DNA of 39,806 bases. Origin: Clostridiales bacterium (GTDB lineage: Bacteria; Bacillota; Clostridia; Lachnospirales; Lachnospiraceae). This document shows, piece by piece, positions 2,349 to 33,654 of the stretch. The notes below the pieces were generated by a model. It did no database searches. It was not told the DNA's origin and saw nothing but the letters and a program-made list of their open reading frames with translations. Both the position numbers and the translations under genes were made by a program. The first letter of the stretch is position 1; each line of letters begins with the position of its first letter. The stretch covers positions 1 through 39,806 of the forward strand of contig JAJBUA010000049.1 in NCBI GenBank assembly GCA_020860565.1. The letters run 5' to 3'.

Positions 2349-3267
2349 TTTTACTTATAATGGCGTAAGTGCCCAGGGGAACGGTCTCTATGAGGCAAAT
2401 CCGGGCGGCGCTCCGTGCAATGTCCTGGCAATGTTGCAGAAGCTGGGGCGGAAAACCGCCTTTATCGGCAAAGTGGGACAGGATTCCTTCGGTGAGATTC
2501 TGACGGCCGCGGTCCGGGAACAGGGGATCAATATTGATGCGGTGAAGTATGATGAGCAGATACACACAACGCTGGCGTTTGTTCATACAACGCCGGATGG
2601 AGACCGATCATTTTCCTTTTATCGCAATCCCGGCGCGGATATGATGCTGACGGCGGACGAGGTGGATGCGGATCTGATCCGGGAGGCAAAGATCTTTCAC
2701 TATGGGACACTTTCGATGACGGCGCCCGGAGTAGAGGAGGCGACAAGGTACGCAATCGAGACGGCAAAGGCGGCGGGCGTCCTCTGCTCCTTTGATCCGA
2801 ATCTGCGTCCGCCTTTATGGGACAGTCTGGAAACGGCAAAAGAAAAGATCGCTTATGGACTTTCTCAGTGTGATATTTTAAAGATTTCGGACAACGAGAT
2901 AGAATTTATGACGGGAGAAACGGACATTGAAAAGGGAGTAAACCGTATCCTTGAAAAGTATCCGATACCCTTTGTCTGCGCGACGATGGGAAAGGACGGC
3001 AGCAAGGCGTTCTTTGACGGGAAGGTCGTAGAAGGGAAAGCGTTTCTGCGGGACGACACGATTGAGACGACCGGCGCGGGCGATACCTTCTGCGGATGTA
3101 TGCTGGATTTTGTCCTGAGCGAAGGTATTCGCAATCCTGACCCGGACAAGGTATGCGGCATGCTCGCGTTTGCCAACGCTGCTGCTTCGTTAATCACGAC
3201 CAGAAAGGGAGCGCTTCGCGTAATGCCGGAGAGGCAGGAAGTGGTTAACATATTAACCGGTTATTGA
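2311..3267 (+). CDS. PfkB-family carbohydrate kinase, probable fructokinase
   Basis: ATP-dependent sugar kinase of the ribokinase/PfkB fold, 318 residues. GELLVDF and the glycine-rich GGAPCNV near the N-terminus are the first PfkB signature. TTGAGDTF near 253-260, with catalytic base D258, is the second. The start at 2311 (or 2314) follows AAAGGAG at 2296-2302. The upstream in-frame ATG at 2203 would extend the protein with unrelated residues read from inside the amylosucrase gene. The position directly after amylosucrase, with a 38-nt overlap, suggests it phosphorylates the fructose released from sucrose to fructose-6-phosphate. Substrate choice is inferred from context and general similarity to bacterial fructokinases. 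Confidence 0.9.
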   Translation: MMDVVALGELLVDFTYNGVSAQGNGLYEANPGGAPCNVLAMLQKLGRKTAFIGKVGQDSFGEILTAAVREQGINIDAVKYDEQIHTTLAFVHTTPDGDRSFSFYRNPGADMMLTADEVDADLIREAKIFHYGTLSMTAPGVEEATRYAIETAKAAGVLCSFDPNLRPPLWDSLETAKEKIAYGLSQCDILKISDNEIEFMTGETDIEKGVNRILEKYPIPFVCATMGKDGSKAFFDGKVVEGKAFLRDDTIETTGAGDTFCGCMLDFVLSEGIRNPDPDKVCGMLAFANAAASLITTRKGALRVMPERQEVVNILTGY

Positions 3268-3280
3268 TCAATAAAAAGTG

Positions 3281-3301
3281 AGCGGCTGAAAAACAGCCGC
3301 T
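3281..3301 (-). terminator. Hairpin terminator, probably bidirectional
   Basis: AGCGGCTG and CAGCCGCT form an 8-bp stem with an A5 loop. Read on the minus strand, the stem is followed by CACTTTTTAT, a good T-tract, so it ends the YprB-like gene. It also sits just after the fructokinase stop and may stop plus-strand transcription less efficiently. Confidence 0.8.
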
Positions 3302-3311
3302 TATCGTCAGC

Positions 3312-4424
3312 TTATAGAGGATGGAATCCGTTCAGCCCGAGCCAGGCAAAGAGCTGGCGGACATACCGGTTAAAGACCGCTGCATCGGAAAAGGAGACAT
3401 TGGCAAGAGGCGCATAACTGATTTTGTCATTCCATTCCTTTTTCATGACCGGTTCCCAGAGCGGTTCCCACTGGGGGAGAAAGCAGCCGCTCTGCCTGAT
3501 ATAACAGGTTTTGGCGGTTGCTTTTTTGCGCGCTTCCCGGGCGACATATTCGCCGACGCTTTTATGAACGGCCATATCCTCATAGATCAGATAATAATAA
3601 TCTTTGTAGTTTTCAAAAAAATGTCTGAGAATGCCGTTATATAACGCAATCTCAAAGGTGGTCTGCCTCCCATCGATGTGACAGGAAACCGGCAGCATGG
3701 AAGATTCGACAGGTACCGGGATACAGACATCACTCCCGGCAGAAAGAGCAAGAAACTGAGCAGTATGACCGGTGATGTCTGTCCGCGTCAGGATTTCCTG
3801 GTTCTGGAAACATAGCGGGCAGGTAAAATAATCCGCATAATTTAAGATTGGCAGGATCTCCGGCATCCCCTTTAAATCATCTTCGTTATGCAGGATTAAA
3901 AGATCATAGAGCGTCCGGCTGTGAGTTCTGAGATATTGATGGTATACTTCAATCAACTGTCCGCCGTTGAACCGGTCGTCCCGGCAGATGCCAAGAAACT
4001 GTTCGACCGATTTTTGCTTCATATTTTCCATGCTGAGGAGTCTGCGGTAAGGTCGGGCTTTTTTGTAAATATCGACACTTTCTATCCCGGAAAAATCATA
4101 ATTCAGCCCCAGATGCCGGCAGCGTTTCATCAGAAAGGGAATATCAAAACCATCGCCGTTAAAATGCACAAGGATGCGGAATTTGCTGAGAAATGTAAAA
4201 AATGCGTCCAGAACTTCCGGCTCGGAATCTTCCCGGTCTGCAAACCACTGAATCAGCCGCCATCCGTCCGGACTCTTCCAGATGCCTCCGATCAGGTAAG
4301 TCCGGGAATTGTCTCCGGAAAATCCGGTAGTTTCGATATCAAAAAAGAGCAGATGATCCGGTGATCCGATGCGTTCCAGAGGGTAAGTTTCGCGGATGGA
4401 TACCGGTTTTTCGATTGTAATCAT
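3312..4424 (-). CDS. YprB-like ribonuclease H-fold (DEDD) exonuclease
   Basis: A 370-residue protein with an RNase H-like exonuclease domain of the YprB type (RNase_H_2). The first metal motif is FFDIETTG, with D29 and E31. The second is HFNGDGFDIPFL, and the third lies around HNEDDLKGM. These give the acidic quartet expected for 3'-5' exonucleases of the DnaQ group. The C-terminal third lacks recognisable motifs but contains one CxxC (TCPLC). No membrane or secretion signal is present. The substrate (DNA or RNA) is not known for this family. The minus-strand ATG at 4424 follows ACGAGG. Monocistronic, with its own terminator at 3281-3301. Confidence 0.85.
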   Translation of the reverse strand: MITIEKPVSIRETYPLERIGSPDHLLFFDIETTGFSGDNSRTYLIGGIWKSPDGWRLIQWFADREDSEPEVLDAFFTFLSKFRILVHFNGDGFDIPFLMKRCRHLGLNYDFSGIESVDIYKKARPYRRLLSMENMKQKSVEQFLGICRDDRFNGGQLIEVYHQYLRTHSRTLYDLLILHNEDDLKGMPEILPILNYADYFTCPLCFQNQEILTRTDITGHTAQFLALSAGSDVCIPVPVESSMLPVSCHIDGRQTTFEIALYNGILRHFFENYKDYYYLIYEDMAVHKSVGEYVAREARKKATAKTCYIRQSGCFLPQWEPLWEPVMKKEWNDKISYAPLANVSFSDAAVFNRYVRQLFAWLGLNGFHPL

Positions 4425-4468
4425 AAAAGCCTCGTTATATATATGATGTGTTTGAAAAATTCAAGTCA

Positions 4469-4487
4469 GATAACGGTAGCTGTTATC
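4469..4487. repeat. Short inverted repeat in the YprB / small-protein intergenic region
   Basis: GATAAC at 4469-4474 mirrors GTTATC at 4482-4487 around a 7-nt centre. It lies between two divergent genes in a 276-nt gap and could be an operator. No promoter could be assigned with confidence nearby. Confidence 0.3.
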
Positions 4488-4700
4488 GTAGAATCTGAGT
4501 TTTTCATTCAATGTTAACGTTATGTGGTTTGATTATAAATAGTTTCTTCACCGTCGTCAATGATTCTGCCCATGATCTTCCTGTATAAAAATAATCGTCA
4601 GTCTCAAAATAAGAGTATCTGTATAACAGATAAAGAATCAGGAGGATGCATCTGACAGCAAGATATCGGAATCATGAAACATGATAGCAGGAGGAAAACG

Positions 4701-4907
4701 ATGAACGTTTTATCAGAAACATTGACAGACGATGAATTCTATGAGGATGACGGTTCGGATCTGGATGATCTGAAAATCTGCTCGGCGACAGACTGCACGG
4801 GATTGATCCCCGCGCTGCCTCAGACGGAGACAGAGTATGGGAACTATGAGGAAATTTATCCCTTCCTCACGAAACCTGTGCCGGAGAAACCAGACAAGAT
4901 TTCCTGA
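4701..4907 (+). CDS. Small acidic protein of unknown function
   Basis: A 68-residue protein starting at an ATG preceded by AGGAGG at 4690-4695, an excellent ribosome binding site. The in-frame ATG at 4674 lacks one. The N-terminal third is strongly acidic (many Asp and Glu between residues 9 and 23). Next come two cysteines (C27 and C32, as CSATDC), then a TGLIPALPQ stretch and a Pro/Lys-rich tail. No signal peptide or membrane segment is present. I do not recognise a family, although the composition and strong translation signal suggest a real protein. The ruvA promoter starts about 27 bases after its stop, so it is probably separately transcribed. Confidence 0.7.
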   Translation: MNVLSETLTDDEFYEDDGSDLDDLKICSATDCTGLIPALPQTETEYGNYEEIYPFLTKPVPEKPDKIS

Positions 4908-4933
4908 GAAACGAATATTTGTTCGAATTGCCC

Positions 4934-4962
4934 TTGCACAGTCATTTTGATTATGGTACAAT
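4934..4962 (+). promoter_or_regulatory. Sigma-A-type promoter for ruvAB
   Basis: TTGCAC at 4934-4939 and TACAAT at 4957-4962 are separated by exactly 17 bp, with a TG at 4954-4955, close to an extended -10. Transcription would start near 4969 and give a leader of about 115 nt before ruvA. Confidence 0.75.
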
Positions 4963-4972
4963 GGGCACAAGC

Positions 4973-5000
4973 GAGCCGGATATGCCTGCATATCCGGCTC
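4973..5000 (+). promoter_or_regulatory. Perfect 12-bp hairpin at the 5' end of the ruvAB transcript
   Basis: GAGCCGGATATG at 4973-4984 pairs perfectly with CATATCCGGCTC at 4989-5000 over a CCTG loop. It begins only a few bases after the predicted transcription start. No T-tract follows, so it is more likely a 5' stability or regulatory element than a terminator. Confidence 0.6.
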
Positions 5001-5082
5001 GTCCCGGATATCGGCCATAAAATTTAGATTCAGGCTTCCAAAGCAGAAGCCTGTCATAGAGGACAGACAAAGGAGCGCGGAG

Positions 5083-5712
5083 ATGTTTTCTTATATCAGA
5101 GGTTCACTGGAAGAGGTTGCCGGAGACGCGGTGACAGTAGAAACGATGGGGATCGGCTGGAAGATTCTGGTGCCGGTATCTGTCCTGGATCGCCTGCCCC
5201 GCACTGGTACTGAGATCAAACTCTATACCTCTTTTCAGGTGCGTGAGGATGATATGACGCTGTACGGGTTTCTGACAGCACAGGACCGCAGGATGTTTGA
5301 AATGCTTCTGCTCGTGACCGGTGTCGGACCGAAAGCGGCGATGGGAATTCTTTCCGTGCTGCAGCCTGATGATCTGCGTCTGGCAATTATCGCGGAGGAC
5401 GCGAAAGCGATTTCCCGCGCGCCGGGCATCGGCCCCAAGACCGCGAAACGGATCATCCTCGATCTGAAAGACCGGATCAGTACAGAAGAGATCCTGCCAG
5501 AGGCATTTCCCTCCGACAGCAAGGCAGGTGCGGCACAGACAATATCCGCTTCCGGAACACCGGGGGCATCCGCAAGAGAAGCGATCGAAGCACTGGTTGC
5601 GCTGGGATATTCATTATCGGAAGCGACCAGAGCAGTGCGCGAGGTAAAAGAGGCAGAGACAATGACGGCTGAGGCCGTCTTGAAGGCAGCATTAAAATAT
5701 CTGGCTTTTTAA
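5083..5712 (+). CDS. ruvA: Holliday junction DNA helicase subunit RuvA
   Basis: RuvA binds four-way DNA junctions as a tetramer and loads the RuvB motor for branch migration in recombinational repair. At 209 residues it has the family length. The N-terminal OB-fold begins MFSYIRG. Two helix-hairpin-helix motifs follow, around VTGVGPK (78-84) and APGIGPK (113-119). A variable Ser/Ala-rich linker near 140-165 leads to the C-terminal RuvB-contacting three-helix domain (EAIEALVALGYS). AAAGGAG precedes the ATG. ruvB follows after 26 nt, so the two genes form the usual operon. Confidence 0.97.
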   Translation: MFSYIRGSLEEVAGDAVTVETMGIGWKILVPVSVLDRLPRTGTEIKLYTSFQVREDDMTLYGFLTAQDRRMFEMLLLVTGVGPKAAMGILSVLQPDDLRLAIIAEDAKAISRAPGIGPKTAKRIILDLKDRISTEEILPEAFPSDSKAGAAQTISASGTPGASAREAIEALVALGYSLSEATRAVREVKEAETMTAEAVLKAALKYLAF

Positions 5713-27018: not shown

Positions 27019-27081
27019 TTCCTACGTAGTGACAAGGTTACAGTTTTTTAATCTATTATAATTTAGGAGAGAATGAGTATT

Positions 27082-28050
27082 ATGAAAAAATCAATCGCAG
27101 TAATTGCAGCAATGAGTATGATGATGGCAGGACTGACCGGATGTGGCTCCAGCCAGACAGCAGAGACAACGGCAGCAGCAACCACAGCGGCAGCAGCTGA
27201 GACTGCAGCGGCAGAAACAACAGCTGCAGCGACGACAGCAGCGGAAACCGAGGCGGCAGCAACAAAGGCAGAAGGCCCGATTACGGTGGTATCGCGTGAG
27301 GATGGTTCCGGTACCAGAGGCGCTTTCATTGAGCTTTTCGGAATTGAACAGAAAAATGACGCAGGTGAGAAGGTAGATTACACGACTGAGGATGCGGAAA
27401 TCACCAACAGCACGGCGGTTATGATGACAACCATCGCCGGCAATACCAAAGCAATCGGATATGTTTCTCTGGGCTCTCTGAATGACAGTGTTAAGGCTGT
27501 TGAGATTGATGGCGCAGAGGCGACCGTAGATAACATCAAATCCGGCGAGTATAAGATTGCCCGTCCGTTTGTGATCGCGGTTCAGGAAGGCTTAAGCGAT
27601 CAGGCGACAGATTTCATCAGCTTTATCATGAGCGAGGAAGGACAGACTGTAGTAGAGGATAACGGTTATATCAGCCAGGGCAACGAGGGTGCTTACGAGG
27701 CAGCTGATGTCAGCGGTAAAGTAGTAGTGGCCGGTTCTTCTTCGGTAACTCCGGTTATGGAAAAACTGAAAGAAGCATATGAAGCTTTAAATGCAAACGT
27801 TGAGATCGAAGTGCAGCAGAGCGATTCGACGACGGGTATTACCTCCGCAATTGAGGGCGTATGTGATATCGGTATGGCCTCCAGAGAACTGAAAGACAGT
27901 GAGCTTGAGTCCGGTCTGATTCCGACTGTGATCGCGATGGACGGTATCGCTGTGATTGTGAACAATGACAGCCCGGTAGATGCGCTGACCAGTGAGAATG
28001 TCATGAATATCTTTATGGGCGACATTACGAACTGGGAAGATGTTCAGTAA
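27082..28050 (+). CDS. pstS: Phosphate-binding lipoprotein PstS, circularly permuted
   Basis: 322 residues. A lipoprotein signal ends in LTG-C21. An Ala/Thr/Glu-rich linker (about 25-62) follows, then the binding fold. The order of the two halves is reversed. First comes the block that is C-terminal in ordinary PstS: ITVVSREDGSGTRGAF (67-82), IGYVSLGSLNDSVKAV, then ATDFISFIMSEEGQ. Then comes the block that is normally N-terminal: VVVAGSSSVTPVMEKL (214-229), CDIGMASREL, AVIVNND, and finally FMGDITNWEDV at the very end. Both phosphate loops are present, so the site should be complete. It captures phosphate outside the membrane for PstCAB. The start at 27082 after AGGAG is preferred over 27073 because it gives the standard MKKS signal peptide. 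Confidence 0.92.
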   Translation: MKKSIAVIAAMSMMMAGLTGCGSSQTAETTAAATTAAAAETAAAETTAAATTAAETEAAATKAEGPITVVSREDGSGTRGAFIELFGIEQKNDAGEKVDYTTEDAEITNSTAVMMTTIAGNTKAIGYVSLGSLNDSVKAVEIDGAEATVDNIKSGEYKIARPFVIAVQEGLSDQATDFISFIMSEEGQTVVEDNGYISQGNEGAYEAADVSGKVVVAGSSSVTPVMEKLKEAYEALNANVEIEVQQSDSTTGITSAIEGVCDIGMASRELKDSELESGLIPTVIAMDGIAVIVNNDSPVDALTSENVMNIFMGDITNWEDVQ

Positions 28051-28095: not shown

Positions 28096-28947
28096 ATGAA
28101 AAACATAAAAGAATCTGTAATGCATGTGGTATTTCTTCTTTCCGCGTGTGCGTCGATTCTTGCGGTAGCCATGATCTGTATCTTCCTGTTTGCGAACGGT
28201 GTGCCGGCGATCGGCAAGATCGGTGTGCTGGATTTCCTGACGGGAAAGACATGGAAACCGGGTAATAATATTTACGGGATTTTTCCAATGATTCTGGGGA
28301 GTATTTATGTGACTGCAGGAGCGATCCTGATCGGCGTGCCGATCGGGATCCTGACTGCGGTTTATTTATCCAAATTCTGTCCGAGAATGCTTTACAAGGT
28401 AATTAAACCGGCGGTGGATCTGCTGGCGGGTATTCCTTCCGTAGTTTACGGCTTTTTCGGTATGGTGGTGATTGTTCCGGCAATGTCGTTCCTCTTTGGC
28501 GGAAGCGGAAAGAGCATGGCGACTGCTTCGGTTCTTCTCGGAATTATGATTCTTCCTACGATTATCGGTGTATCCGAATCTGCGATTAATGCGGTGCCGT
28601 CGAGTTATTATGAGGGCGCACTGGCGCTTGGCGCGACACATGAACGCAGTGTGTTTTTTGCAACGCTGCCGGCGGCAAAATCAGGCATTCTGGCCGGTGT
28701 CATCCTTGGTGTCGGGCGTGCGATCGGAGAGACGATGGCGGTAATTATGGTAGCAGGCAATCAGGCGCGTATGCCGAAGGGATTATTTGAGGGAGTGCGT
28801 ACCATGACGGCCAATATCGTGCTGGAGATGGGTTACGCGACAGATCTTCACAGAGAGGCGTTGATTGCGACCGCAGTCGTGCTGTTTGTGTTTATTCTGA
28901 TTATCAATCTGTTATTTTCTCTGATCAGCAGAAAGGCGGAGGTGTAA
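28096..28947 (+). CDS. pstC: Phosphate ABC transporter permease PstC
   Basis: 283 residues with six membrane segments. Inner-membrane permease that pairs with PstA. Visible family features are NIYGIFPMILGSIYVT, the LLAGIPSVVYGFFG loop, and the EAA-type coupling loop (YYEGALALGATHERSVFFATLPAAKSGI) that contacts PstB. GRAIGETMAVIMVAGN is the conserved block following it. AAGGAG precedes the ATG. pstA starts 3 nt after the stop. Confidence 0.96.
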   Translation: MKNIKESVMHVVFLLSACASILAVAMICIFLFANGVPAIGKIGVLDFLTGKTWKPGNNIYGIFPMILGSIYVTAGAILIGVPIGILTAVYLSKFCPRMLYKVIKPAVDLLAGIPSVVYGFFGMVVIVPAMSFLFGGSGKSMATASVLLGIMILPTIIGVSESAINAVPSSYYEGALALGATHERSVFFATLPAAKSGILAGVILGVGRAIGETMAVIMVAGNQARMPKGLFEGVRTMTANIVLEMGYATDLHREALIATAVVLFVFILIINLLFSLISRKAEV

Positions 28948-28950
28948 GAG

Positions 28951-29826
28951 ATGGAAGGAATCGTTGAGATTAACCGTCAGACGGTTGTTCAGAAAATGAA
29001 ATCTTACAGGAGAAGTCCTCTGTCGTTGCTGCTTTATCTGCTGGTGACGCTGTCAGCCCTTCTTACAGTGCTGACCCTGCTTTTCCTGATTGTTTATATT
29101 CTGGTGAAGGGAATTCCCTATCTGACGCCTGAGCTTTTTGCCTGGGAATATAACAGTGAGAATGTGTCGCTGACTCCGGCGCTGGTCAATACCGTAATGA
29201 TGACGCTGCTGGCACTGCTGGTGGCAGTACCGCTGGGAATTTTCGCGGCAATTTATCTGGTTGAGTACGCGAAACGGGGGAATAAGCTGGTTTCGGTTGT
29301 GCGTGTGACTGCGGAGACTTTGTCCGGTATCCCATCGATTGTCTATGGCCTGTTTGGCTTTCTGTTTTTTGCAGTAAAGCTTAAATGGTCTTATACCATT
29401 ATGGGCGGCGCGCTCACGCTGGCGATTATGATTCTGCCGTCCATTATGCGGACCACGGAGGAGGCTCTGAAGGCTGTGCCGGACTCTTATCGGGAAGGAA
29501 GCTTTGGGCTGGGAGCTGGGCGCCTGCGTACGGTTTTCCAGATTGTGCTGCCTTCCGCTGTACCGGGGATCCTCGCCGGTGTGATTCTGGCGATCGGGCG
29601 TATCGTTGGTGAGACGGCCGCTTTGATGTATACGGCAGGTACGGTAGCCGGTATCCCGTCCAGCCTCTTTGGCTCCGGACGTACTCTGGCGATTCATATG
29701 TATGTGCTGACCAATGAGGGGCTTCACACGAATCAGTCTTACGCGACAGCGGTTGTTCTGCTGGTCGTTGTGATCTGTATTAACGCGATCTCAGGCTTTA
29801 TTGCCCGGCAGGTAGAGAAACGCTGA
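28951..29826 (+). CDS. pstA: Phosphate ABC transporter permease PstA
   Basis: 291 residues with six membrane segments. It shares with PstC the [14 protein letters not shown] loop, an EAA loop ([28 protein letters not shown]) and [15 protein letters not shown]. The N-terminal ~30 residues are hydrophilic and precede the first helix. Its start is almost contiguous with pstC. pstB follows after 26 nt. Confidence 0.96.
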
Positions 29827-29852: not shown

Positions 29853-30608
29853 ATGAATATGGATAAGTTTACGATTGAAAATATGGAACTGTATTACGGT
29901 GATTTCAAGGCGCTGAAGGGGATTAATCTGAATATTCAGGCGAATGAGATTACTGCGTTTATCGGACCGTCCGGATGTGGAAAATCCACTCTGCTCAAAT
30001 CACTGAACCGGATGAATGATCTGGTGGAAGGGTGTAAGATTACCGGAAGCGTGAAGCTGGATGGAGAAGATATTTACGGAGATATGGATATCAATCTGCT
30101 GCGTAAGAGGGTCGGCATGGTATTTCAGAAGCCGAATCCATTTCCGATGAGCGTTTATGATAATATTGCTTTTGGACCGCGTACCCATGGAATTCACTCC
30201 AAGGCGCATCTGGATGATATTGTCGAGAAATCGCTGACCGATGCGGCAATCTGGGATGAATTAAAGGACCGTCTGAAAAAGAGTGCGCTTGGTCTGTCCG
30301 GAGGACAGCAGCAGCGTCTGTGTATTGCCCGTGCGCTGGCTGTGCAGCCGGATGTCCTCTTGATGGATGAGCCGACCTCGGCTCTTGATCCGATTTCAAC
30401 TTCTAAGATCGAAGACCTTGCGGTTGAACTCAAAAAGGAGTATACTATCGTCATGGTGACCCATAATATGCAGCAGGCCGCGCGTATCTCAGATAAGACA
30501 GCATTTTTCCTCCTTGGAGAGGTGATTGAATTCGGTGAGACAGATCAGATCTTTTCGATGCCGAAGAATAAAAAAACCGAGGATTATATTACGGGGAGGT
30601 TTGGCTGA
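29853..30608 (+). CDS. pstB: Phosphate ABC transporter ATPase PstB
   Basis: 251 residues. ABC ATPase that powers PstCA. Walker A is GPSGCGKST, the Q-loop is [11 protein letters not shown] (the PstB-specific version), the signature is LSGGQQQR, Walker B is [13 protein letters not shown], and the switch histidine is in [14 protein letters not shown] lies upstream. phoU starts 1 nt after the stop codon. Confidence 0.97.
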
Positions 30609-30609
30609 T

Positions 30610-31254
30610 ATGAGAGAACAATACGCGAAACAGCTGGAATATCTGCATGTGGAAATGGTTCGTATGGGCGCTTTGTGTGAGGACGCGATCACCTGCGTCA
30701 CCCGTATCCTTCTGGGGGAGACTGGCCTGCAGGATCAGCTTCAGGAAACTGCGCAGCAGATTGAGCAGGAAGAAAAGGATATTGAGAACCATTGTATGCG
30801 CCTGATCTTAAAACAGCAGCCGATTGCGACTGATCTGCGCACGGTGTCATCTGCACTGCGGATGATTTCAGATATGAACCGGATCGGCGTCCAGACGCAG
30901 GATATCGCGGATATCTGCCGCTGCCTGAATGGGAAACACCTGGAATGTGAGGCTTTGCTCCGGGAGATGGCTGAGGCTGCCGGTCACATGGTGACAATGA
31001 GTGTGGATTCCTTTGTCCGGCGGGATCTGGAACTGGTACGCGAGGTTGTGGGATATGATGATGTTGTGGATGACCTCTTTGACCGGATCAAGAAAGAACT
31101 GATCGGGATACTGGGACAGGGAACCGATGAAGAACGCGGTGAGATCTGCATTGATACACTGATGGTCACCAAATATCTGGAGAGAATCGGCGACCATGCC
31201 AGCAGTATTGCGACATGGGTAGAGTATTCGATTACGGGACAGCGCACAAAGTAA
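30610..31254 (+). CDS. phoU: Phosphate signalling protein PhoU
   Basis: 214 residues, two repeats of the three-helix PhoU domain. It links PstB activity to the PhoR sensor and limits phosphate uptake. The sequence shows the E-x-x-x-D metal-site patterns of the family (for example VGYDDVVDDLFDRIKKEL, and IGDHASSIATW near the C-terminus). The start at ATG 30610 follows GGGAGG; an upstream in-frame ATG at 30526 lies inside pstB. The gene is tightly packed after pstB and 22 nt before the response regulator. Confidence 0.95.
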   Translation: MREQYAKQLEYLHVEMVRMGALCEDAITCVTRILLGETGLQDQLQETAQQIEQEEKDIENHCMRLILKQQPIATDLRTVSSALRMISDMNRIGVQTQDIADICRCLNGKHLECEALLREMAEAAGHMVTMSVDSFVRRDLELVREVVGYDDVVDDLFDRIKKELIGILGQGTDEERGEICIDTLMVTKYLERIGDHASSIATWVEYSITGQRTK

Positions 31255-31276: not shown

Positions 31277-31957
31277 ATGGCTGTGATTTATTTAGTGGAA
31301 GATGATAACAGTATCCGGGATCTGGTAGTTTATACTCTGGAGACAAGCGGGCTCCCTTCCAAAGGGTTTGCGTCTGCGGCTGAGTTCTGGGAAGCGATGG
31401 AGAAGGAAACGCCGTCGCTTGTACTGCTGGATATCATGCTTCCTGATGAGGATGGCCTGAGTATTTTAAAAAAGCTTCGCCGTTCTTCTCAGGCAGCCAG
31501 GCTTCCAGTGATTATGCTGACAGCCAGGGGAACCGAATACGACAAGGTCGTAGGTCTGAACGAGGGAGCGGATGATTATATCCCGAAACCATTTGGTATG
31601 ATGGAACTGGTTGCCCGTGTGCGTGCTCTGCTCCGGAGAGCGGAGTCCGGGCAGGCAGAAAAGACGACGGTATTCCGGATCGGGGATATCATGCTGGATC
31701 CCAAAAAGCATGTGGTGAAGGTAAAGGATGAGACCGTAACGCTGACCTATAAGGAATTTGAACTTTTACAGCTGCTTATGGAAAATGAGGGTAATGTCCT
31801 GACCAGAGAGCAGATCATGGGGAAGATCTGGGGTTATGATTTTGATGGAGAAACCAGAACGGTAGATGTCCATGTGCGCTCGCTGCGAATGAAACTGGGT
31901 ACAGCGGGTGACCGGATTGAGACTGTCCGCGGAGTGGGATATAAGATCGGAAATTAA
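31277..31957 (+). CDS. phoP: PhoP/PhoB-type response regulator
   Basis: 226 residues, OmpR/PhoB class. In the receiver domain the acidic pocket is ED (about 8-9), the phosphoacceptor is D52 (LLDIMLPDEDG), and T82 and K104 complete the switch. The C-terminal winged helix (about 130-224) carries the usual LTYKEFELLQLL and RTVDVHVRSLRMKLG patterns. It should bind the TTTACA/TTAACA repeats upstream of pstS. AAGGAGA precedes the ATG. Its stop overlaps the sensor kinase start by 1 nt (TAATG), a translational coupling. Confidence 0.92.
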   Translation: MAVIYLVEDDNSIRDLVVYTLETSGLPSKGFASAAEFWEAMEKETPSLVLLDIMLPDEDGLSILKKLRRSSQAARLPVIMLTARGTEYDKVVGLNEGADDYIPKPFGMMELVARVRALLRRAESGQAEKTTVFRIGDIMLDPKKHVVKVKDETVTLTYKEFELLQLLMENEGNVLTREQIMGKIWGYDFDGETRTVDVHVRSLRMKLGTAGDRIETVRGVGYKIGN

Positions 31958-33654
31958 TGATGATGAAAATGAAGAGTAAAATCTATCATAATATATGTCT
32001 GATGGCTGTAATTACCATGGTACTTGTTACCATGGTAACTGCTTTTTTATTTTGTGTCGATCTGCAGAAGCAGATGAAACAGGAAGTAAAGGCGGAGCTG
32101 CGTTATCTTTCTGCGGCTATGGAAACGGATCCGCAGGGATTCCTTTCCCGATTGTCCGGTCACGGTGACGGCAACGCGGTCAACCGGATCACATGGATAT
32201 CGGCGGACGGAGAAGTGCTTTATGACAGCTATTCGGACGAAGAGAGTATGGAGAACCATGCACAGCGGCCGGAAGTGCAGCAGGCTTTGTCGACGGGGCG
32301 CGGTGACAGTACGAGGCTTTCGGATACGCTTTCGGAGCAGACCTATTACAGCGCTCTGCGGCTGTCCGACGGTACCGTGATCCGGGTGGCCAGTACGACG
32401 AGAAGCGGATTTGCAGTACTGGTACAGATGATTCCCTGGATGGCGATTATGACGCTGGTGATCTTTGCCGGAACCTTTTCCTTTGCGCGGGTGCAGACAC
32501 GTCAGATTGTCCGCCCGATCAATGAGATGGATCTGGATCATCCGGATCCGGAGAAGGTTTATGACGAGCTTTCGCCGCTGATCCGCAGAATTGAAAAGCA
32601 AAATGAGACGATTGTAAGCCAGATGGCGGAAATCTGGCAAAAACAGGAGGAGTTTACGGCGATCACGGAAAATATGGAGGAGGGTTTCATCATTGTGGAT
32701 TCCCACGCAGAGGTGCTTTCCTTCAACAGCAGCGCGATCCGGATCCTTGGTGTCAATATGATGAACCGGGATGGCAGACCGGCCAATGTGCTGGATCTGA
32801 ATCGTTCCAATGCTTTCCGTCAGGTGGTGGATCAGGCGCTGGACGGTCATCACAGCGAACAGAAACTGGAATTAAACGGAAGCTTTTATCAGATTATCGC
32901 GAATCCGGTCAATGTGAGTGCAGATAAGGGGAATGGAGCCGTCGTGATCATTCTTGATGTGACGGAGCGGGAATATCGGGAAGAGATGCGGCGGGAGTTT
33001 ACCGCTAATGTATCGCATGAGCTAAAGACGCCTCTGACGTCGATCTCCGGGTATGCGGAGATTATGCAGAACGGTATGGTGCAGCCGGAAGATATGGCGC
33101 GGTTTTCCGGAAAAATCTACAGTGAGGCGCAGCGTCTGATCTCTCTGGTCAATGATATTATCCGGCTTTCTCAGCTCGATGAAGGCAAACAGGATCTGGA
33201 AAAGTCAAAAGTAGACCTGTATATGGCGGCGTCAAGGACGCTGGATTATTTAAAGGAAACAGCAAAAAAGGCAGAGATTTCTCTCTGCCTGAAGGGTAAA
33301 CCGGTTGTTATAGAGGGCGTTTCTGCCATTCTGGATGAGATGATCTACAATCTCTGCGATAACGCCATCAAATATAATCATCCGGATGGATATGTGATCG
33401 TAACCGTCCACAAAGAAAACGGACATCCGACCTTGAAAGTAGAGGACAATGGCATCGGTATCCCGGATGCGGATCAGCCCCGTGTGTTTGAGCGCTTTTA
33501 CCGGGTAGATAAAAGTCATTCCCGCCAGATTGGCGGCACCGGACTGGGCCTGTCAATCGTCAAGCATGCGGCGATCTATCACAACGCCAGAATCGAACTT
33601 ACCAGCAAGGTTGGGAAAGGGACTACGATAAAGATTACGTTTCCGGCTTTATAA
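31957..33654 (+). CDS. phoR: PhoR-type sensor histidine kinase
   Basis: 565 residues. A membrane helix near 12-33 and another near 155-176 flank a ~120-residue extracytoplasmic part. A PAS-like domain (about 232-335) follows. The dimerisation/phosphorylation box is [13 protein letters not shown] with H354. The ATPase domain carries the N-box (DNAIKYN), the G1 box (DNGIGIP), the F-box (VFERFYRVD) and [10 protein letters not shown]. It is the partner of the upstream regulator. The 3' end overlaps the convergent asnA gene by 6 nt. The assignment to phosphate sensing comes from operon context. Confidence 0.93.

Follow-up and report, generated by a model that had tools for sequence, protein, structure and literature searches.

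Can a protein whose two halves stand in the reverse of the usual order still be the PstS of the importer encoded beside it? The question is raised by a gene in a 39,806-nucleotide contig of a gut-dwelling Clostridiales bacterium (family Lachnospiraceae; assembly GCA_020860565.1, contig JAJBUA010000049.1), which was analysed over its whole length and is called the window here. PstS is a textbook binding protein, and in E. coli it is a free periplasmic protein without lipid. In the accessible record of the E. coli PstSCAB cryo-electron microscopy complex (9K3X), a PstS of classical order is seated on PstCA. A first-pass annotation, made from the sequence, had read the window gene as a circularly permuted pstS. 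Our analysis indicates that its product is very probably such a protein, a lipoprotein that captures phosphate for the PstCAB importer encoded next to it.

Order of the two halves and identity of the protein

The gene occupies a single open reading frame (ORF; 27073-28050, plus strand, 325 amino acids). The second methionine, at 27082, is the likelier start, as annotated at first pass, since the 322-amino-acid ORF of a 97%-identical relative (L044) begins there. A Pfam search placed PF12849 positions 127-267 at 27262-27639 (E = 1.2e-11) and positions 3-126 at 27694-28050 (E = 1.4e-23). Each piece individually exceeded the family cut-off, and the two E-values exclude a chance match; the whole protein scored 119 bits against a cut-off of 27. 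The second half of the profile thus precedes the first in one frame, and the classical arrangement, an N-terminal half (GSTSV...NW) ahead of a C-terminal half (REDGSGTR...), was absent. As the first-pass annotation had stated, the chain ends right after IFMGDITNWEDVQ. The curated model TIGR02136 matched the protein in two stretches with 184.5 bits; once the halves had been put in classical order, it matched in one stretch with 205.2 bits.

The structural search matched 4H1X, a PstS that follows the same order from end to end (46% identity, 256 aligned residues, rmsd 1.9). The match is colinear and full-length, and the cut and the junction are identical in position. In the comparison with a classical control, the solved PstS structures among the matches listed all aligned in classical order, and 4H1X did not appear among them. 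Sequence, structure comparison with this control, and the reordering test together support a circular permutation of one fold. A classical gene disrupted by misassembly, by a frameshift, or by truncation is already refuted as an explanation: the frame is open throughout, and the same order was found in 99 distinct permuted proteins gathered from the fetched loci, in a complete chromosome (L073), in a complete plasmid (L173), and in a crystal structure. It is also present in the independently assembled L044, from a named metagenome-assembled genome, and in G317, which is possibly the same organism as L044. The first-pass annotation was therefore right to reject a frameshift or truncation.

Residue conservation was counted on the 120 rows of the larger tree described below, comprising 65 permuted proteins of the main group, 9 permuted proteins of an orphan group (one of them lacking the start of the first half), and 46 classical proteins. 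Arg14, Ser18, Gly19, Thr20, Ser161, Ser191, and Ser209 were kept in all 65 main permuted rows, so that the elements of a phosphate pocket (GSSS, Ser191, Ser209, Arg14, and Ser18-Gly19-Thr20) are present; Gly160, Ser161, and Ser163 of the GSSS motif were invariant in a 47-row alignment. The accessible description of PhoX names Ser34, Ser62, Arg159, Gly164, and Thr165, and also Asp80 and Asn201, as phosphate ligands, to which we provisionally matched the pocket residues by motif and E. coli numbering. The PhoX Asp80 position corresponds to Ser209 in the window PstS, and it is likewise Ser in 46 of the 46 classical rows. Residue 190, just before the pocket Ser191, is Asp in 63 of the 65 main permuted rows and in 9/9 orphan rows, and Gly in 45 of the 46 classical rows. 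In the window, Asp190 lies at 27823-27825 and might affect specificity or affinity.

The genetic context agrees with this identity. The lipobox LTGC (residues 21-24, read by eye) and the downstream open frames of pstC, pstA, pstB, phoU, a response regulator, and a histidine kinase are intact, in line with the first-pass annotation. A pstC gene follows within 400 bp for 88 of the 99 distinct permuted proteins and for 42 of 50 classical ones; the remaining 11 permuted proteins consist of two leading copies in tandem pairs, four orphans, two genes at locus ends, and three unexplained cases. Two tandem or unrelated domains, or a binding protein repurposed for another ligand, would accord with the replacement of the classical Gly by Asp190 beside the pocket serine, and with a score under the curated PstS cut-off. 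We regard this as very unlikely in view of the full-length match to a single PstS fold, the seven pocket residues kept in the main group, and the place within a pstCAB-phoU operon; the unrelated or duplicated halves that the first-pass annotation had named as its own refutation were not what the structure comparison revealed.

Some observations weigh against the identification as PstS. Even the reordered protein misses the TIGR02136 cut-off of 206.6 bits. Neither form shows a clearly conserved equivalent of PhoX Asn201: the closest candidate position, Asn51, holds Asn in 56/65 main permuted, 2/9 orphan, and 17/46 classical rows. We nevertheless favor a circularly permuted PstS, which is predicted to bind phosphate in its cleft and to hand it to PstCA like any other PstS.

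The streptococcal protein 4H1X shares the permuted order and differs in carrying Gly190 instead of Asp190. It is titled SP_2084 of Streptococcus pneumoniae in the PDB (released 2012). The accessible part of PMC11075461 gives pstS as the name of SP_2084 and pstS2 as that of SP_1400, which makes Pst1 of the pneumococcus the most likely home of the 4H1X protein; the molecule name entered in the PDB, 'pstS 2', conflicts with this. According to the accessible text of PMC4913102, low phosphate induces Pst1 more than 100-fold, and optimal uptake after phosphate limitation depends on Pst1, the initial rate being about halved without it, while single deletions left uptake at 1 mM phosphate and low-phosphate growth unchanged. 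These data lend indirect support to the view that a permuted PstS works.

Cut point, lobes and lipid anchor

Classical proteins share, with variations, the joint pattern ..IFxGxITNWxxVGGxDAxIxVVxREDGSGTR.. at the site in question. The permuted proteins end at NWxxV or a few residues past it, and their core begins with IxVxxREDGSGTR; the former chain ends are bridged by GYIS..GAY....SGK. The classical fold is thus kept, with its break in the loop that leads from the ITNW helix to the REDGSGT strand, and a short linker connects the old ends.

In classical PhoX, domain II is continuous and domain I discontinuous, and the hinge strand has 16 residues (PMC5439949, accessible text). The strands at 102-109 and 222-235 (14 residues) in the model of the window protein are the natural counterparts of the two hinge crossings. 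The rows of M. tuberculosis PstS-1 in the structural search align from 144 to 229 and then stop, which fits this assignment. The cut therefore appears to lie inside lobe II, which would leave lobe I unbroken as an inserted domain and place both chain ends and the lipid anchor on lobe II, the reverse of the classical arrangement with the anchor on lobe I. A caution for this assignment is that it borrows the published limits of another PstS-type protein. Classical PstS (4GD5, 4Q8R, 1TWY, and many in Clostridia) have the same fold elements, main pocket residues, and operon as the window PstS; they differ in the opposite order of the halves and, presumably, in the anchored lobe.

A lipobox is also present in five classical PstS of the same family whose sequences were read. 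Tethering alone therefore does not explain the permutation, and the altered docking on PstCA that the first-pass annotation suggested is conjectural. The distance from lipobox to core in permuted proteins had a median of 20 residues (range 8-62, n = 91); the corresponding pattern was found in only 3 classical proteins, and the comparison was not used. One permuted PstS (L082, 4434-5777) has a signal peptide lacking the lipobox Cys and is perhaps secreted unanchored.

Distribution, descent and the moved anchor

We searched 61 relatives at E 1e-8 and obtained matches in 34, of which 18 were permuted, 14 matched as two swapped pieces, and 2 as a single, unassigned piece. At the same threshold, the 24 genomes of the window's own genus divided into 13 permuted, 1 classical, 1 unassigned, and 9 without a match. 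With 13 of 15 matching congeners permuted and an independent assembly in agreement, a classical order in all close relatives, which the first-pass annotation had set as a refutation, was not encountered. In a family sample of 200 genomes from 199 genera (E 1e-12), 118 matched: 61 of the 200 were permuted and 57 lacked a full-length colinear match, as classical genes behave, with swapped pieces shown among the matches listed. Another permuted query likewise found 61 genomes. In a phylum sample of 299 genomes, 175 matched at E 1e-10, at least 10 of them permuted among the matches listed. All 80 loci from named genomes hold a permuted protein, in a search biased to close relatives. Apart from its two permuted genes, the window's own genome yielded a single PF12849 match, which stayed below the cut-off.

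The first-pass annotation had proposed a search across Clostridia for the same order. The order indeed proved common in the window's family, and it is not confined to Clostridia, since the Streptococcus pneumoniae protein 4H1X and a Treponema protein are also permuted. Plasmid records with permuted pstS and pstCAB-phoU came from Monoglobus and Treponema saccharophilum. The Treponema occurrence, a single plasmid record from another phylum (L173, 5929-9947, a permuted pstS-pstCAB-phoU operon), probably reflects horizontal transfer. Phage-labelled matches, for the most part short faecal contigs without annotation, were not counted as evidence that phages carry the gene. In Anaerotignum, two different permuted pstS genes stand in tandem before pstC (L056, 394-2330; L059, 4902-6892).

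For the descent of PstS, we built a tree from the 105 de-permuted rows, 59 permuted and 46 classical, that remained of 148 after thinning at 85% identity, and left out three pieces (two of L147 and one of L038, which runs off the end). None of 500 shuffles was as low in changes of order as this tree. Forcing the permuted rows together cost 19.1 log-likelihood units and was not rejected (approximately unbiased test, p-AU 0.236). In a 120-row tree, made by a quick method with 15 of 31 further proteins added (all 31 permuted), the permuted rows form one side of a branch with a Shimodaira-Hasegawa-like approximate likelihood ratio (SH-aLRT) value of 89. In a PstC tree (82 rows thinned from 143, one short row dropped), the partners divide along the same line (97/62; 95% of bootstraps).

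These sequence trees are most simply read, short of proof, as showing that the permuted form arose once and was inherited together with PstC. As the likeliest course, a single ancient permutation, probably through duplication of the gene and subsequent trimming, would have descended along with PstC, been lost in places, and been transferred in some cases. Several results tell against a single origin. Two changes of order are required on the 105-row tree (a single one in 77% of bootstraps), and its odd row, the classical L161, falls on a long branch among permuted rows. The PstC tree holds no streptococcal row. Furthermore, a duplicated intermediate would carry one of the halves twice, and this pattern was absent from all 168 PstS ORFs of the loci. 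Had the same loop been cut independently on two or more occasions, for instance once in Clostridia and once in streptococci, this would account for the two changes, for the long branches of 4H1X and L023, and for Asp190 in most Clostridial permuted proteins against Gly in 4H1X. This alternative seems unlikely to us, as the cut point and the junction position are identical in the permuted rows read, and the 120-row branch and the constrained tree are compatible with one clade.

Two candidates for intermediates were discarded. L133-L136 seemed to carry a C-half piece before the N-half, and their sequences contain an unrelated N-terminal extension instead; L147, with the halves in separate frames, was read as a frameshifted classical-order gene rather than a natural split. 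The proteins of L133-L136 (family f88) are classical PstS of 380-392 amino acids with an additional N-terminal stretch of about 100 amino acids. The classical PstS of L161 (3647-4561) and its PstC adjoin the permuted group in the trees, and it is either the nearest classical sister or a long-branch effect.

The permutation might also have been selected for the moved anchor. Tethering of lobe II might improve docking on PstC/PstA or lessen strain at the binding site, as suggested for TpMglB-2 (Tp0684), a glucose-binding protein of the proposed 'Type Ic'. According to the accessible text of PMC4990184, TpMglB-2 has retained ligand binding and conformational change despite its permutation. It shares with the window PstS a natural permutation, a lipid tether, and service to an ABC importer, and differs in its Type I sugar-binding fold, its ligand, and the family permuted. 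It was not among the structural matches listed for the window PstS, the best of which was a PstS, although this absence proves nothing.

Such adaptive re-anchoring is consistent with the occurrence of that other, unrelated permuted family mostly in treponemes and Gram-positives with tethered proteins (PMC4990184, accessible text), and of permuted PstS likewise in Gram-positives and a Treponema. Permuted PstS and PstC also group together in the trees, and both forms were seen together in at least three family genomes (G431, G520, and G525), the only three among the matches listed. Against it, co-occurrence may be commoner outside the genus, as 7 of 27 genomes with a permuted gene hold a further long colinear PF12849 match (G293, G030, G220, G145, G140, G342, and G357). 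Family genomes of the classical kind, five of whose proteins also have the lipobox, are about as common as permuted ones (57 against 61), and a second permuted homologue stands away from PstCA in 11 of 12 genomes examined. We did not adopt the strain argument: the new N-terminus lies about five residues from a pocket residue, and in sequence the old one is equally near. We thus consider adaptive re-anchoring rather doubtful, and a neutral, tolerated change at least as likely as an advantage. With classical and permuted lipoproteins both present within one bacterial family, the permuted PstS, common and functional by indirect signs, offers a natural experiment on lobe order and on the anchored lobe in docking.

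Orphan homologues, earlier work and annotation

The second permuted homologue in the window's genome (contig C98, about 40% identical) lies outside any pst operon and adjoins a full-length Na+/phosphate cotransporter. Twelve genomes with such orphans, taken non-exhaustively from the best-scoring matches and including one partial match (G525), were examined, and the pair was present in 11, the exception being G380. The binding protein comes first in 8 pairs and the transporter in 3, and the two genes overlap or sit within about 150 bases of each other as measured from the aligned parts. The paired transporter of L153 has Na_Pi_cotrans and PhoU domains (Pfam), and the other transporters match it by tblastn. 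In the 120-row tree, the orphans form one group (SH-aLRT 100, with the G380 row included); G525 and G415, outside the tree, were called orphan-type by their better match to an orphan query.

We tentatively propose, as a possibility below even odds, that the permuted PstS is an old alternative topology, found instead of the classical form in roughly half of the PstS-bearing family genera sampled, and that it has given rise to an orphan lineage. The orphan would work with a PhoU-domain Na+/phosphate cotransporter instead of an ABC importer, as a lipid-anchored phosphate catcher or sensor. Our literature search, including the accessible part of PMC13170248, found no pair of a binding protein with a Na+/phosphate cotransporter. 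If the proposal holds, this would be a binding-protein-dependent Na+/phosphate system, a kind without an example in the accessible literature searched, and the pairing is a directly testable lead.

Permuted binding proteins as such are already known (TpMglB-2; PMC4990184, accessible text), and the PDB entry for a permuted PstS dates from 2012. Our literature search, with few subscription papers within reach, found no publication on permuted PstS and no paper naming 4H1X. As far as these searches reach, the permuted nature of this PstS form, its commonness, and the orphan pair are undescribed. The coordinates of the features are collected in Table 1.

Table 1. Features of the permuted pstS gene, its operon, and the orphan pairs (window positions unless a locus is named).
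Feature	Position	Strand	Basis
Permuted pstS, whole gene	27082..28050	+	Open from 27073; start by comparison with L044
Lipoprotein signal peptide and lipobox LTGC, Cys codon 27142-27144	27082..27144	+	Read directly from sequence
Ala/Thr-rich linker, lipidated Cys to first core strand	27145..27279	+	Sequence
Lobe II, first part; start of classical C-terminal half (ITVVSREDGSGTRGAF); pocket Arg, Ser, Gly, Thr	27280..27564	+	PF12849 127-267; putative limits from PhoX domains
Lobe I, unbroken: classical C-terminus, new junction, classical N-terminus	27565..27951	+	Putative; model strands 102-109 and 222-235 as hinge crossings, PhoX limits
New junction YISQGNEGAYEAADVSG, classical C-terminus to classical N-terminus	27667..27717	+	Alignment; chain ends in classical proteins
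GSSS pocket motif, in second half here, first motif in classical PstS	27733..27744	+	47-row alignment
Lobe II, last part, ending NWEDVQ (joins REDGSGTR in classical PstS)	27952..28047	+	Putative lobe assignment
pstC permease	28096..28947	+	PF00528; role by homology and position
pstA permease	28951..29826	+	PF00528; role by homology and position
pstB ATPase	29853..30608	+	PF00005
phoU regulator	30610..31254	+	PF01895
OmpR/PhoB-type response regulator and PAS-containing histidine kinase (PhoBR-like pair)	31277..33654	+	PF00072, PF00486, HisKA, HATPase_c, PAS; probable Pho role from position
Orphan pair; also L153, L154, L155, L205-L209, L211, L212	L215 (G000:C98) 2968-5481		

We also compared the TIGR02136 scores of the two forms. 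The 11 permuted proteins tested all scored 181-200 bits, below the cut-off, and the 10 classical proteins tested all scored 222-294 bits, above it; the splitting of the score causes the NCBI model to miss permuted PstS. In both annotated plasmid records, pstC is named, and the permuted gene beside it is called a 'substrate-binding domain-containing protein'. Where surveys of phosphate uptake by gut Clostridia depend on annotated names, PstS may be undercounted.
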